A stretch of 64,000 nucleotides of DNA, taken from contig JAKFUF010000101.1 of assembly GCA_021732845.1 (NCBI GenBank), positions 1 through 64,000 of the forward strand, given 5' to 3'. This document shows positions 15,947 through 27,814 of this stretch, in pieces. The notes beneath the pieces are model-generated. The model saw nothing but the letters and a program-made list of their open reading frames with translations. It ran no database searches and was not told where the DNA came from. This stretch comes from Planctomycetaceae bacterium. GTDB taxonomy: Bacteria > Planctomycetota > Planctomycetia > Planctomycetales > Planctomycetaceae. A program made the position numbers and the translations under genes. Positions within the stretch are counted from its first letter, which is position 1. Every line of letters begins with the position of its first letter.

Positions 15947-15975
15947 AACCGGACGGCTTCCGCCGTGCCGCTAAA
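15947..15975. repeat. REP-like palindrome
   Basis: CCGGACGGCTTCCGCCG matches the dispersed palindrome family, with C for G in the loop. It sits between the divergent DUF1207 gene and mqnA. Confidence 0.6.
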
Positions 15976-16860
15976 TGCGCCATGGCTGGCCACCACAACT
16001 CCCCCGCAAACAGGCGGGGAACTACAATGGCAGCCACGAAGTCTGGGTTCACGCACGATTTTCACGGGATTTCCCGATGTCCACCGCCGACCCCATCCGC
16101 ATTGGTGCGGTCAATTACCTGAACTCCAAGCCACTGATCGAGGGATTGGAAGGTCTGGCTCCGGCCGCGGAACTGATTCTCGACTACCCCAGCCGGCTGG
16201 CGGCGGCGCTCGACCGGGGCGATTTGGATGTGGCTCTGGTCCCCTCCGTCACCTGTCTGCTGCGTCCGGACTATGAAGTGGTCTCCGATGCCTGCGTCGC
16301 CACGCATGGGCCGGTGTTGAGCGTCAAGTTGTTCAGCCGGGTGCCGCCAGGCGAGATCAAGCGGCTGGCGCTGGACGCGGGGTCGCGGACGAGTGCCACG
16401 CTGGTGCGGATTCTGCTGGCGGAACGGTGCGGGGTGTTCCCGGAGGTTGAGCCACTGTCGCTGGAGGCGACCACGGAAGACAGCGGGGCCGACGGCATCC
16501 TGCTGATTGGCGACCGGGCGATTGAGCCACCGGCGGAGAAGTTTGCCTGCACGTGGGATCTGGGGGAGGAATGGACCCGCTGGACGGGCCTGCCGTTCGT
16601 GTTCGCCATGTGGGCCACCCGGACGGGGACGAACCTGGGACCAGTGGAGGAGGGGCTGGGTGCGGCTCGCGACCGCGGGGTCGCGCGGCTCGTACAGATT
16701 GCCGCGCGGGAGGCTCCGCTGCTGGGGCTCTCGTACCAGACGACTATTGATTACCTCGAAAAAAACCTATATTACCGGCTGGGACCGGCCGAACGGCGGG
16801 GGCTGAAACGCTTCCACGAACTGGCGGTCCGGCATGGTCTGGCGCCTGAAGGAGTTGAAC

Positions 16861-17994
<1,134 letters not shown>

Positions 17995-21232: not shown

Positions 21233-21970
21233 TCACCGCGTGGCGGCAATCGCATCGCGAACCGTCAAAGTGCCCTCATATAACGCGCGGCCGATGATGG
21301 CTCCCACCAGATTCGGCTGCTTGCGGGCGCGGCGGGTGAGTTCCGTCACGTCCGCAACGGTCGTCACGCCACCCGACGCGATGATCGGAAAACCCAGTTC
21401 CGCGAGGCGTTCCATGTCTTCCAAAGTGGCGGTGTCGACACCGGACATCATGCCGTCGTTGGCGATGTTCGTGTAGATCAGGGCTCCGAGCGGAAGACCG
21501 ACAAACTTGCGGGCCAGGTCGATGGCCGGTGTCTGCGAGACATCGAGCCACCCCTCGGTGGCGACCATCGAGTTGCGGGCGTCAATCCCCAGAACCAGCC
21601 GGTTCGGGTAGCGGGCAGCCATCTCCGCGAACCACTCCGGATGCTTGAGCGCCTGTGTCCCGATGATCACGCGGGCGATGCCCACATCCTCCAGCATCAG
21701 CCTCAGCGCGGCTTCGTCGCGCAGTCCGCCACCCAGTTGGCAGGGGATTTTCAAGCCCTGCACGATGGACCGGACCACTTCCGTGTTGACCGGCTTCCCG
21801 GCCTTCGCGCCATCCAGGTCCACCAGATGCAGCCGCGTGGCTCCTTCGCTCTCCCACCGGCGCGCCATCGCCAGCGGGTCGTCGCTGAACACCGTTTCGC
21901 GGGCATAGTCGCCCTGCTTGAGCCGCACGCAACGGCCGCCACGCAGGTCGATGGCGGGAAGGATTTCCAT
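21233..21970 (-). CDS. hisA: Phosphoribosylformimino-5-aminoimidazole carboxamide ribotide isomerase
   Basis: 245 residues, the usual length. HisA carries out the Amadori-type isomerisation of ProFAR to PRFAR in histidine synthesis. [20 protein letters not shown] contains the catalytic Asp8. The second acid lies in [14 protein letters not shown], and the phosphate-binding loop in [14 protein letters not shown]. The canonical N-terminus is ATG 21970, so the TTG at 21988 is not used. It lies downstream of hisH on the same strand, with a 152-bp gap. Confidence 0.95.
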
Positions 21971-22122
21971 GAGGGAAGTTCTCGGCAATCAGGGTCTTAA
22001 AAATGCTTGCTCCGCTGGATGTCGCGAGCATAGCCGGGTGTGATCTTAGGATGAATCAACCGCAACTGCGCCACTCTGCGACCTCTGCGGTCATCCAATG
22101 CGTTGTACGGCAAACTGGCGTC

Positions 22123-22746
22123 TCAAACACACTCCGAAAAATTCCGCAGCATCTGCAGGCCCAGCGACTGGCTTTTCTCGGGATGGAACTGGGTGGCAAA
22201 CAGGTTGCCGCGGCGGATGACGGAGGTGAACGGCAGACCGTAGTCCGTCGTGGCGGCGGTGACGGTGGGGTCGGCCGGAGCCACGTAGTAGCTGTGGACG
22301 AAGTATACGTAGGCGTCTTGCGGCACGTCACGGAACAGCGGGTTGCCGGAACGATCGGCTTCAGCGGGAGAATGAATGCGGTTCCAGCCCATGTGGGGAA
22401 CCTTCAGATCCTGCACGTCGGGAAAGCGGCGGACTTCGCCAGCAATGATTCCCAACCCCTCCCATTCGCCGTCCTCGTAACTCACATCCATCAGCATTTG
22501 CATTCCGAGGCAGATCCCCAGGAAGGGTCGCCCGGCGGCGACATGCTCGCGAATCGGCTCGACGAACCCCTGCCGCCGCAGTTCGGCAATGGCATCGCGA
22601 AACGCACCCACGCCGGGGAGGACCAACTTTTCGCTGCCCGCCAGTTCTTCCGGCCGCGTGCAAATGCGGGCTTCCGCCCCCACCCGTTCAAACCCCTTCT
22701 GCACGCTCCGCAGATTCCCCATCCCGTAGTCGATGATGCTGATCAT
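22123..22746 (-). CDS. hisH: Imidazole glycerol phosphate synthase, glutaminase subunit
   Basis: 207 residues. The triad-bearing glutamine amidotransferase supplies ammonia to His[21 protein letters not shown] is the typical start. The nucleophile is in [16 protein letters not shown], and the His-Glu pair in [22 protein letters not shown] gives the oxyanion strand. HisF, its partner, is not in the window; hisA follows downstream. Confidence 0.95.
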
Positions 22747-22879: not shown

Positions 22880-24193
22880 TCACGCACCGCGAGCCACAAT
22901 GGCACTGGCCTGGCCGAGGCGGGTGACGCTGAGCTTGAGGAACAACTTGTTCTCAATGGGGAGCGGCTTTCCCTGCACAAGGTTCAGGTTGCACTCGGGA
23001 TCGGGCTGGTCCGCGTTGGCGGTGGGCGGGACAACTCCGTGCTGCAACCCGACAATCGATCCGGCCAGTTCCAGCGTCCCGCTGCCGGAGCCCGAGTTTC
23101 CCAGCAGGCTCTTGAGCGCGGTGACCGGCACCTTCGAGCCCAGGTCGCCAAAGACTTCGTGAATCGCGCGGGCTTCGCCCAGGTCGGTCATTTTATCACC
23201 CAGACCAAAGGCGTTGATGTGCCCAATCTGATCGGGAGTGACCTCCGCGTCGCGCAGGGCGCTGTTCATCGCCAGGACCAGGGCCCGGCGATAGTCTGGC
23301 TTCTGGTTTTTGTCCAGAACGCAGGAGGCTCCGGCACCAAGGATATAGCCATAAATCGTGGCTTTCCGGGCTTCGGCATGCTTCGCTTCTTCCAGAATCA
23401 GCGTGCAGGCCCCTTCCGCGGCCACCTGCCCCTGCCGACGGGTGTCGAATGGCCGGCAGGCTCCATCCGGTGAAAGCGGATCCCACAAAACGGCATGCAT
23501 CGACTTGATGGCATGCACCCGGGTCCCCGTGGCTCCAGTAATCATCACGTCGGCATGGTTCCGGGCGATGATCCGCATCGCCTCACCCATTGCCAGGTTG
23601 CCGCTGGCCTCGTCCATCGTCAGCGAGTTGTTCGGACCACGTGCGTCCGCGCCGATGCCGATGTGGCAGGCAGGCATGTTGGGCAGGTACTTCAGGAGCC
23701 ACAGGGGCTCCATCTTGGACATGCCGCCCGTTTCTTTGTTGCCCCACAATTCCGCATTGAAGGCGTTGGTGGCGGGGTCGATCGAATGAAAGCTGCCCGC
23801 GCCCAGATCTTCCGGGGGACTGAGCATCAGGTTGGCACCGAACTCGACACCCAGCCGTTCAGGGTCGACGGCGGCCTTGAGCGCGGCGTCATCGGTGAAG
23901 CCGGCGTCATCAAGGGCGAGTGTGGCGGAAGCCACGCCCATCTCGATTTCGCGGCACATCAGCTTGCGTCCCTTCCGCTGATCCTTGCGGAGCAGTTTGA
24001 CGCCGTTGTAATCGCGGACTTCACCGCCAATGCGACCCGGCAGCGGAGAATATGCCAGCCCCTGAATGGGGTGAAAACCTGGGCGGGCCGCCTCCAAACT
24101 TTCCCAAAATGGGCCAGTTCCGATGCCAATGGGGCTGATAATACCCAAACCGGTAATGGCGACGACTCGTTCCGTGGGATGCAGGCTGCTCAT
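22880..24193 (-). CDS. Ketosynthase (FabF/KAS II-fold) homologue lacking the catalytic Cys-His-His residues
   Basis: 437 residues with the complete thiolase fold of KAS II (VVAITGLGIISPIGIGTGPF at the N-terminus, ADVMITGATG, VPPTANADQPDPE). Aligned by eye to E. coli FabF, the nucleophile Cys163 (ATACTSG) is Glu195 (TMDEASG), His303 (NAHGTST) is Phe329 (NAFGLGD) and His340 (KSMTGH) is Asn366 (KSLLGN). The lysine next to the last site (Lys361) is kept. Condensation through this chain is therefore not expected. It may be a chain-length-factor-like partner, a decarboxylase of the Glu/Gln type, or have a new role. There is no neighbouring acyl carrier protein or second ketosynthase. The start is ATG 24193. 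Confidence 0.85.
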   Translation of the reverse strand: MSSLHPTERVVAITGLGIISPIGIGTGPFWESLEAARPGFHPIQGLAYSPLPGRIGGEVRDYNGVKLLRKDQRKGRKLMCREIEMGVASATLALDDAGFTDDAALKAAVDPERLGVEFGANLMLSPPEDLGAGSFHSIDPATNAFNAELWGNKETGGMSKMEPLWLLKYLPNMPACHIGIGADARGPNNSLTMDEASGNLAMGEAMRIIARNHADVMITGATGTRVHAIKSMHAVLWDPLSPDGACRPFDTRRQGQVAAEGACTLILEEAKHAEARKATIYGYILGAGASCVLDKNQKPDYRRALVLAMNSALRDAEVTPDQIGHINAFGLGDKMTDLGEARAIHEVFGDLGSKVPVTALKSLLGNSGSGSGTLELAGSIVGLQHGVVPPTANADQPDPECNLNLVQGKPLPIENKLFLKLSVTRLGQASAIVARGA

Positions 24194-24803
24194 TTGTGGA
24201 GGGTTCGCGGGGACGTTTGAAGGCCTGGATGGGATCACAGCGCGACCTTTCAGAGAAAGCTCACGCGGCGGGCCGGCTCAACCTTCACGGCCCAGCGGGT
24301 CCTTTATCGGGAACTCGCGGAGGACGACGAAGTAACTCGAAAATGGTAGCAGATTTCAGCGACGGTAGAAGCCTGATCGCCCGACCAGCAACGGCTGGCC
24401 GGTTTTCGACAAGAGGGAAGCCATTATGTAGCCCGAAGGGTCACTCTTGAACCTGCGCTTTTTCAAAATCAACACAGGCCAGTCCCTTACGACAGAATCT
24501 CAAATCTCAGATTCCAAATTTCACAGGCTGTGCGACCACATCGAACTATCGGCCACGCCTCCACAGCGAAGTCCGTAACTCTCGCCCGGAATGCCAGTTG
24601 TCGCGAAAAAGCATTTTACCGTGAAATACTTTGTCGCAGCATCCACACTGTGGGGCAACAGTTACGTTCGCGCCATTGAAGCTCAGTCGACAGTTCGGTG
24701 TGGCTGAACAGACTGTGAAATTTGAAATTTGAGATTTGAAATTGGCTTTTGTCGGACACGTCAGATTTGAGATCGCGGCTCATGACCGGCATTGGCTGTA
24801 GCC
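24194..24803. other. Intergenic region with a MITE-like element
   Basis: No gene is visible. The right two-thirds are occupied by an AT-rich element with inverted ends (24495-24743). The left part is unremarkable. Confidence 0.6.
24495..24743. mobile_element. MITE-like element, AATTTCAAATTTCACAG family, longer copy
   Basis: The left end (GAATCTCAAATCTCAG, ATTCCAAATTTCACAGGCTG) mirrors the right end (GACTGTGAAATTTGAAA, TTTGAGATTTGAAATT). An internal GCGAAAAAGCATTTTACCG is also found, slightly changed, in the shorter copy at 55701-55831. There is no open frame. I infer a non-autonomous element; its mobiliser is not visible. Confidence 0.6.
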
Positions 24804-25807: not shown

Positions 25808-26839
25808 CTAGGAGCCACCACCCCGTTCTGCCATTGGCATCGCCGCCGCTTTTGAGCGGCAGCCTGTAAATGCCGACTGATCTATGGGTTTGCTGCGAAA
25901 TGCCGATTGCGCAATCTGGGAAAGACTGTCGAGATCTTGTTGATGGCGGGGATCGCAACCGTTGGCCGACTTCAGAACACTCCGATCCCGCCGCCACGCG
26001 GTGGGTTGATTAGCAGGTCGGAGTCTGCGCAGCTTTTCCAACCCCTCGTCCGTCAGTTTCGTCCGAAACACCCCTTTTTGATAATTCGTTTCGTTTTTCG
26101 CGGAGATGTACAGCACCTTCAAAGATGGCATTTTCGTTAAGTGTTCGAGGCTCGCATCCGTCAGGTTCCAATTCCGCTCGATATTCAGATCCTTGATGCC
26201 TCGATGGTGGCTGATCAGTTCGATGTGGCTGTCCACCAAACCATCCGCTTCCCAGCTCGAGATTTCGAGTGTCTCCAGCTTTGGTTTTCGAATTAGGAGA
26301 GACTGCAGATCGTCCCGTGACAACGTCACGTCATTGAACCTCAGAGTGGCCAGCAACGGCAGCTTATCGAGAAGGCGTGGCACATGCTCACTTATCGGTT
26401 TCCCCTCCGCGCTGATGGAAAGCTCTTTGAGTTGCTGGAGCCGGGAGATCTGATTCCAGGCGGCAGAATTTGCCGGATCCGCTGGTAAAATGAAGCCGAG
26501 GGTTTGAACTTGAAGGGGCAGGTGAGGCCAGGCGGAGTCCGACACAGCGTCGAAGTCAACGGACTTCAATCCACGAAGATTCTTCAAATGTCGCATGTCG
26601 CCGACATGCACTGCCTCACCGAAGCCAACGTAATCCACGGTACTGAACAGTTCGTTGACCCAATCGACTTCAACAATCGGTGGATCGCTCAGGTGGGTCA
26701 TAGAGAGGTAGATCGAATCCCGATCCTTGAGAGCAATAACGGCATTGCGGTGCCTGTACAGCACCGCGCCCGGAAATCCAATGGCGGCGCTTAGTACGGC
26801 GACCACCGTCGTCCAGACCAAAGCGCGATAAGAACGCAT
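25808..26839 (-). CDS. Membrane-anchored leucine-rich-repeat-like protein, probably frameshifted near its 3' end
   Basis: 343 residues. A membrane segment (LVWTTVVAVLSAAIGFPGAV) is followed by degenerate leucine-rich repeats (HLKNLRGLKSVDFD, LQQLKELSIS, LETLEISSWEADG, GIKDLNIERNWNLTDASLEHL). It is a tandem paralogue of 26930-27814. The match stops after EGLEKLRRL near 26020. In the +1-shifted frame the sequence reads DLLINPPRGGGIGVF then stop (25972), matching the paralogue's DLEINPVPVFGCFGGF end. The last 70 or so residues of the present frame are therefore probably out-of-frame. Confidence 0.75.
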   Translation of the reverse strand: MRSYRALVWTTVVAVLSAAIGFPGAVLYRHRNAVIALKDRDSIYLSMTHLSDPPIVEVDWVNELFSTVDYVGFGEAVHVGDMRHLKNLRGLKSVDFDAVSDSAWPHLPLQVQTLGFILPADPANSAAWNQISRLQQLKELSISAEGKPISEHVPRLLDKLPLLATLRFNDVTLSRDDLQSLLIRKPKLETLEISSWEADGLVDSHIELISHHRGIKDLNIERNWNLTDASLEHLTKMPSLKVLYISAKNETNYQKGVFRTKLTDEGLEKLRRLRPANQPTAWRRDRSVLKSANGCDPRHQQDLDSLSQIAQSAFRSKPIDQSAFTGCRSKAAAMPMAERGGGS

Positions 26840-26929
26840 GACAATTGCTCTCTCAGGAACTCGTGGCAACGCAGTGCAGGCCTGAAATCGAGTGAATGGC
26901 AGACAGGCAACAACCGTGGGCGAAGACCG

Positions 26930-27814
26930 TCAAAACCCGCCAAAACAGCCGAAGACCGGCACGGGGTTGATTTCCAGATCGGGCCGGAGGATTCGCAGTT
27001 TTTCCAGGCCCTCGGGCTTCAGCTTTCTCTGAGCCAGCGTTGCGGGAGAGTCGTCCGCCAGGGGCGTGATATTCAACAGCTTTAATGAAGTCATCTTCGC
27101 GAGGTAGTCGAAGCTGGCGTCCGTGAGCCGCTTGTTCCCTTCGACATTGAGTTCTTTGATGCCGTGATGGTGGCTGATGAGTTCAATCTCCGCATCCGTC
27201 AAGCCGCCCGCTGTGCCGTCCTCTTCCCAATTCGAGATTTCGAGCGTTTCGAGGTGTGGCTTTTGAGTCAGAATCGCCTGCAGCGTCGCGGGCGACAACG
27301 GCAGATTTTGGAGGCGAACAGCCTTCAGCGAAGGCAGGGAACTCAAAACCTGCGGCAGTTGCTGATCGGCGGAAAGACCGCCACCTTCGATGGAAAGCTC
27401 CTCGAGATGCTTGAGTCGGGCAATCTGCTCCCAAGCGGCGGCATTAGGCTGGTCCGAATGCAGGGTGAACTGCAGGGACTCGAGCTGACGCGGCAGAAAG
27501 GCCCATGCGGAATCAGATACGTTCTGGAACGAGACCGCCGTTAACCCACGCAAATTCTGCAAGTGCCGCATGTCGGCCGGCTGAACAGTTTCCTGAAAGT
27601 CTGCCCGTTCGACCGTGCTGACCAGACTGTCATACTCTCTCACCAGCCGGTATTCCGATTCTGGACGCGCCAAGGCTGAGAGCGTGATCGAATCCCGGTG
27701 CTCCAGCGCCGCGACTGCCGCATGGTGCCTGTGCAGGACCGCTGCCGGAAAGCCGATTGCCGCGCTGGACACAATGACCACCGTCGTCCAGATCAGAACA
27801 CGATACGACCGCAT
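26930..27814 (-). CDS. Membrane-anchored leucine-rich-repeat-like protein (intact paralogue)
   Basis: 294 residues. The N-terminal anchor (VLIWTTVVIVSSAAIGFPAA) and LRR-like units (HLQNLRGLTAVSFQN, LKHLEELSIEGG, LETLEISNWEEDG, GIKELNVEGNKRLTDASFDYL) align throughout with the downstream copy. It ends cleanly at GCFGGF. LRRs of this kind bind proteins; the partner is unknown. The 90-bp gap and common strand indicate tandem duplication and joint transcription. Confidence 0.8.
   Translation of the reverse strand: MRSYRVLIWTTVVIVSSAAIGFPAAVLHRHHAAVAALEHRDSITLSALARPESEYRLVREYDSLVSTVERADFQETVQPADMRHLQNLRGLTAVSFQNVSDSAWAFLPRQLESLQFTLHSDQPNAAAWEQIARLKHLEELSIEGGGLSADQQLPQVLSSLPSLKAVRLQNLPLSPATLQAILTQKPHLETLEISNWEEDGTAGGLTDAEIELISHHHGIKELNVEGNKRLTDASFDYLAKMTSLKLLNITPLADDSPATLAQRKLKPEGLEKLRILRPDLEINPVPVFGCFGGF

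Follow-up and report, generated by a model that had tools for sequence, protein, structure and literature searches.

The window, a stretch of 64,000 nucleotides, carries on its minus strand at positions 22880–24193 an intact open reading frame, with an ATG at 24193 and a stop codon ending at 22880, that encodes a ketosynthase-fold protein of 437 amino acids, here called KS-A and assigned to the KSbeta type described below. Translation from an alternative GTG at 24238 would lengthen the protein by 15 amino acids. The N and C domains of the Pfam ketoacyl-synt family span the entire length of the protein, a PDB search also returned a full ketosynthase, and orthologues in the family share about 46–63% identity. 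Against the NCBIfam fabF equivalog TIGR03150, KS-A scored 245.9 bits, below the cut-off of 493.75, and so fails as a FabF, whereas the FabF (627 bits) and KSalpha (503 bits) of the same genome clear it. Two genes outside the system lie downstream on the same strand, hisH at 22123–22746 (TIGR01855, 230.9 bits) and hisA at 21233–21988 (TIGR00007, 241.6 bits). His genes were not seen next to KS-A in the other relatives' loci that were read, and a functional tie between KS-A and histidine biosynthesis is unsupported because the neighbours vary among these relatives.

Active-site residues were mapped by alignment to E. coli FabF, whose sequence came from the annotation of an E. coli plasmid. The Cys-His-His triad is absent from KS-A: Cys163 corresponds to Glu195 (codon 23609–23611, minus strand), His303 to Phe329 (TTT, 23207–23209, minus) and His340 to Asn366 (23096–23098, minus). 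Lys335 is retained as Lys361 (23111–23113, minus) and Glu349 as Glu375, while Phe400 is replaced by Arg425 and Phe133 by Trp165. An AF2 model of KS-A built from 54 orthologues (pLDDT 94.6, pTM 0.93) placed positions 195, 329 and 361–366 as in FabF, with residue 195 opening helix 194–210, residue 329 in the loop past strand 325–327, and residues 361–366 at helix 361–364. Over its full length the model matched FabF (1j3n) with a Z of 58.9, and the actinorhodin chain-length factor (CLF, 1tqy_B) with a Z of 57.1 and an rmsd of 1.8 over 393 residues. KS-A thus shares with FabF the fold and the Lys335/Glu349 pair, but lacks the nucleophile and both His. The structure comparison restored no Cys or His to the active site, and the alignment and the model together confirm the three replacements and the retained Lys that the first-pass annotation had read by eye.

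Type-A orthologues occur in 100 of 101 family genomes, and the lone genome without one is 79% complete. Position 195 is Glu in 109 and Asp in 6 of 115 type-A proteins, a set that had been filtered for an acid at this site and is acidic there by construction; in the unfiltered listing, every type-A protein likewise has an acid at the Cys site. Asn366 is found in 111/115 and Lys361 in 113/115, and His325, a second lineage-specific residue, also in 113/115. The view of the first-pass annotation that the loss is ordered and not random decay therefore stands, given the intact frame, the universal acid and the conserved Asn. The Glu-Phe-Asn set, which it proposed to look for in planctomycete homologues, does not characterise the family. 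Position 329 is His in 86, Cys in 19, Gln in 5, Asn in 4 and Ala in 1 of the 115 orthologues, so that the family signature is Glu/Asp-His-Asn and Phe329 is private to KS-A among type A, with Phe at this position also in some deeper homologues. As TTT is two changes away from any His codon, a single-base error does not explain Phe329. Near-invariant positions in the type-A alignment are concentrated in residues 150–192 (21/43, compared with 48/378 elsewhere, p = 1.2e-7), and this block overlaps the lining of the dimer interface in FabF (PMC5206705).

A second paralogue, type B, is present in most family genomes. The copy in this genome (L149, 10952–12211, contig C61) has an acid at the Cys site and keeps His303, and the His340 site of type B is His or Asn, varying among relatives. 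No fatty-acid genes or ketosynthase were linked to type B in the loci read. Loci L001–L080 were considered as type B, but the tree places them as type-A orthologues (A2) of other Pirellulales.

The genomic context was read from genes called outside the window by a simple script, with the key ones confirmed by HMM. Among 90 relatives with both genes, 39 have FabF directly upstream of KS-A on the same strand within 2 kb, in the order plsX-fabD-acpP-fabF-KSA, followed in some by nusA-infB-rbfA. In genome G057 (L171), KS-A lies downstream of fabZ-fabG-ACP-fabZ2-KSalpha-rlmN. The KS-A genome has the same fabZ-fabG-ACP-fabZ2-KSalpha operon on contig C13 and its FabF on C85, and KS-A adjoins neither of these candidate partners. 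Hence the description of the gene as standing alone next to his genes is right for this genome but not for the family. KSalpha was found in 60/61 genomes and FabH in 61/61. The KS-A genome also contains tandem canonical ketosynthases (L148, 8639–11263, G000 contig C49), the second of which is 58% identical to KSalpha.

Relatives of KS-A in other planctomycete families (33–38% identity) lie in direct tandem with a canonical ketosynthase. In trees made with FastTree, whose support values are given here, types A and B and these tandem homologues form one clade (n = 52, support 1.00), which we call KSbeta. All 52 members carry the signature PLW[LM]L[KR]xLPNM, with one exception at position 168; P163, L164, W165, L167, L170, P171, N172 and M173 are each present in 52/52. 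KS-A belongs to the clade by this signature (PLWLLKYLPNM, residues 163–173, positions 23675–23707, minus strand, with Trp165 at the FabF Phe133 position) and by its acid at the Cys site. Most KSalphas, including that of this genome, have an acidic ELEQE-like segment where KSbeta has LLKYL; to judge from the sequences, this contrast fits an asymmetric pair in which the two segments may be in contact. The Cys site is Cys in family f15, Asn or Ser in f31 and Glu or Asp in the remainder. The basal f15 members (L132, L133, L136 and L193), which are also in tandem, retain Cys-His-His and the GFGG loop, which indicates that the tandem came first and the loss of the catalytic residues later; f15 KSbeta is the apparent ancestral stage, and the series of residues follows the course expected of a ketosynthase pair in which one partner abandons catalysis. 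The clade is not phylum-wide: at a strict cut-off, a profile built from its deeper members found matches in 32 of the 196 planctomycete genomes sampled. On a plasmid of Streptomyces sp. HUAS 15-9 (L210, 2233–5212), two ketosynthases are found with a reductase and dehydratases; the first groups with planctomycete KSalpha (support 0.85), and the second has Ala at the Cys site.

KS-A resembles the CLFs of type II polyketide synthases, represented by the actinorhodin CLF, in having a complete ketosynthase fold from which the Cys and both His are lost and in which Lys335 is kept. The first-pass annotation had set the gene apart from CLFs because these occur beside a partner ketosynthase. That contrast applies to this genome only: the gene follows FabF in 39 of 90 relatives and the KSalpha operon in G057, and the deeper KSbeta genes each adjoin one for a canonical ketosynthase, although type A is not in tandem with KSalpha. 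KS-A genes lie in fatty-acid synthesis loci, unlike type II CLF genes, and the residues differ: three Streptomyces CLFs carry Q, D and R together with the Lys, whereas the KS-A family carries Glu/Asp, mostly His, and Asn. In the FastTree tree, the Streptomyces CLFs group with their own ketosynthases and FabF, apart from KSbeta, with low inner supports on the CLF side. The different residues and separate placement make the likeness between KSbeta and CLFs one of probable function and not of membership, and KSbeta apparently arose separately from the actinobacterial CLFs.

The altered active site was partly published in 2009 for Rhodopirellula baltica. Rattray et al. (2009, PMC2649909) described RB3714 and RB4527 as altered-site FabF paralogues and grouped them with non-canonical FabFs of Kuenenia that have Val, Phe or Ser at the Cys site. 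RB4527 was given as Glu163, His298, Lys328, Asn333 and Pro392, residues that match type A2 (those of L046), and RB3714, with Asp163, is probably type B. That paper suggests recruitment of non-FASII products and assigns the R. baltica paralogues no function; in the parts read, it describes neither a tandem partner nor a KSbeta clade and does not interpret the proteins as CLFs. In ladderane clusters, the gene for a non-canonical FabF adjoins that for a canonical one (kuste3605/3606; PMC4790861), and a 2023 catalogue of KS-CLF pairs includes Planctomycetes among 14 phyla (PMC10132072). The "cyclization factor" AmcG, which is without functional motifs, forms a heterodimer with the functional ketosynthase AmcF in a complex predicted to be KS-CLF-like; AmcG is without some CLF secondary structures, whereas KS-A has the full-length ketosynthase fold (PMC10698177). 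No paper found in the open-licence literature proposes the KSbeta role.

We consider that KS-A is probably a KSbeta, that is, a non-condensing subunit of ketosynthase fold that pairs with a canonical ketosynthase in the manner of a CLF. This interpretation draws on the loss of the triad with retention of Lys335, a pattern common to the Streptomyces type II CLFs, and on the near-universal presence of type A in the family alongside KSalpha. It draws also on the linkage to fatty-acid synthesis genes, both FabF and the KSalpha operon of G057; on the tandem of deeper clade members with canonical KSalpha, the basal f15 set being intact; on the invariant PLW signature and the acidic segment that most KSalphas have in the corresponding position; and on the overlap of the near-invariant 150–192 block with the FabF dimer interface. 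KS-A would heterodimerise with KSalpha, the product of the C13 operon, or with FabF from C85. As partner, KSalpha is favoured by its acidic ELEQE segment and by the tandem arrangement of the deeper homologues, and FabF by the gene order in Pirellulaceae. FabF Phe133 presumably reaches the partner's pocket, a residue on which no statement was found in the literature searched. The invariant Trp165 and the PLW segment may be pictured as shaping the acyl tunnel of the partner and thereby determining, in the way of a CLF, how long the chain grows or which substrate is chosen. Several points argue against this role: operon linkage can reflect a shared pathway and not physical pairing, the 150–192 block lies around the active site as well and could be conserved for reasons other than dimerisation, and KS-A is beside neither candidate partner in its own genome. 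The earlier interpretation of the locus is partly supported.

A conserved acid and a mostly kept His303 would suit catalysis too, and KS-A could be a new kind of enzyme that uses Glu/Asp195, together with His303 in those proteins that have it, as a base or nucleophile towards acyl-ACP in transfer, hydrolysis or isomerisation. All type-A proteins have the acid, as do the type B and most of the deeper homologues read, and His325 would be in line with such a site. We regard this enzyme as unlikely, as position 329 is variable, being H, C, Q, N or A in relatives and F here, Phe400 is lost, and a fixed polar residue at the Cys site (Gln) is conserved in actinobacterial CLFs too. Decarboxylating ketosynthases are recognised by a replaced Cys while the rest of the enzyme stays intact. 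The replaced Cys of KS-A, and the position of its gene next to fabD-acpP-fabF in relatives, would suit a malonyl-ACP decarboxylase of the KSQ type supplying acetyl-ACP for priming. However, KSQ has Gln at the Cys site and keeps both His used in decarboxylation, whereas KS-A, with Glu, Phe and Asn, has both replaced, and His340 is Asn family-wide. The presence of FabH in 61/61 genomes also means that priming does not need KS-A, and priming by decarboxylation for want of FabH is ruled out. A decarboxylase is therefore less likely than a KSbeta subunit, and we hold it to be very unlikely.

In several genomes KS-A is part of the fab-nusA-infB locus, and its fold and Lys/Glu network are retained, which could instead reflect a homodimeric acyl-ACP-binding regulator or scaffold that senses fatty-acid synthesis; this leaves unexplained why KS-A falls in one clade with tandem KSbeta genes, and we rate it quite unlikely. 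Only the privacy of Phe329 to this species would suggest a functionless, decaying paralogue, which is hardly credible because the intact frame, the presence in 100/101 genomes, the identity within the family and the invariant motifs contradict it.

Extending the KSbeta reading to the family is more tentative. It is possible, although we would not presume it, that in Pirellulaceae obligate asymmetric ketosynthases, composed of KSalpha or FabF with a dead acidic KSbeta of type A or B, run primary or membrane fatty-acid synthesis as a CLF system of independent origin in primary lipid metabolism, maybe related to the unusual ketosynthase pairs in the ladderane clusters of anammox bacteria. If this is right, the principle of a ketosynthase with a chain-length factor, known from secondary metabolism, was separately invented in the lipid synthesis of this phylum, and its intermediates survive, from a tandem pair with both members active through Asn/Ser to Glu/Asp. 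The non-canonical FabFs reported from R. baltica in 2009, and perhaps the anammox ones, would then have a testable role.

Two further gene pairs were observed in the window. At 25808–27814 on the minus strand, two adjacent similar genes of 353 and 294 amino acids, with MRSYR and WTTVV in common near the start, are apparently a tandem duplication. At 15975–17994 on the plus strand, two overlapping genes resemble, by eye, MqnA and MqnC of the futalosine pathway to menaquinone.
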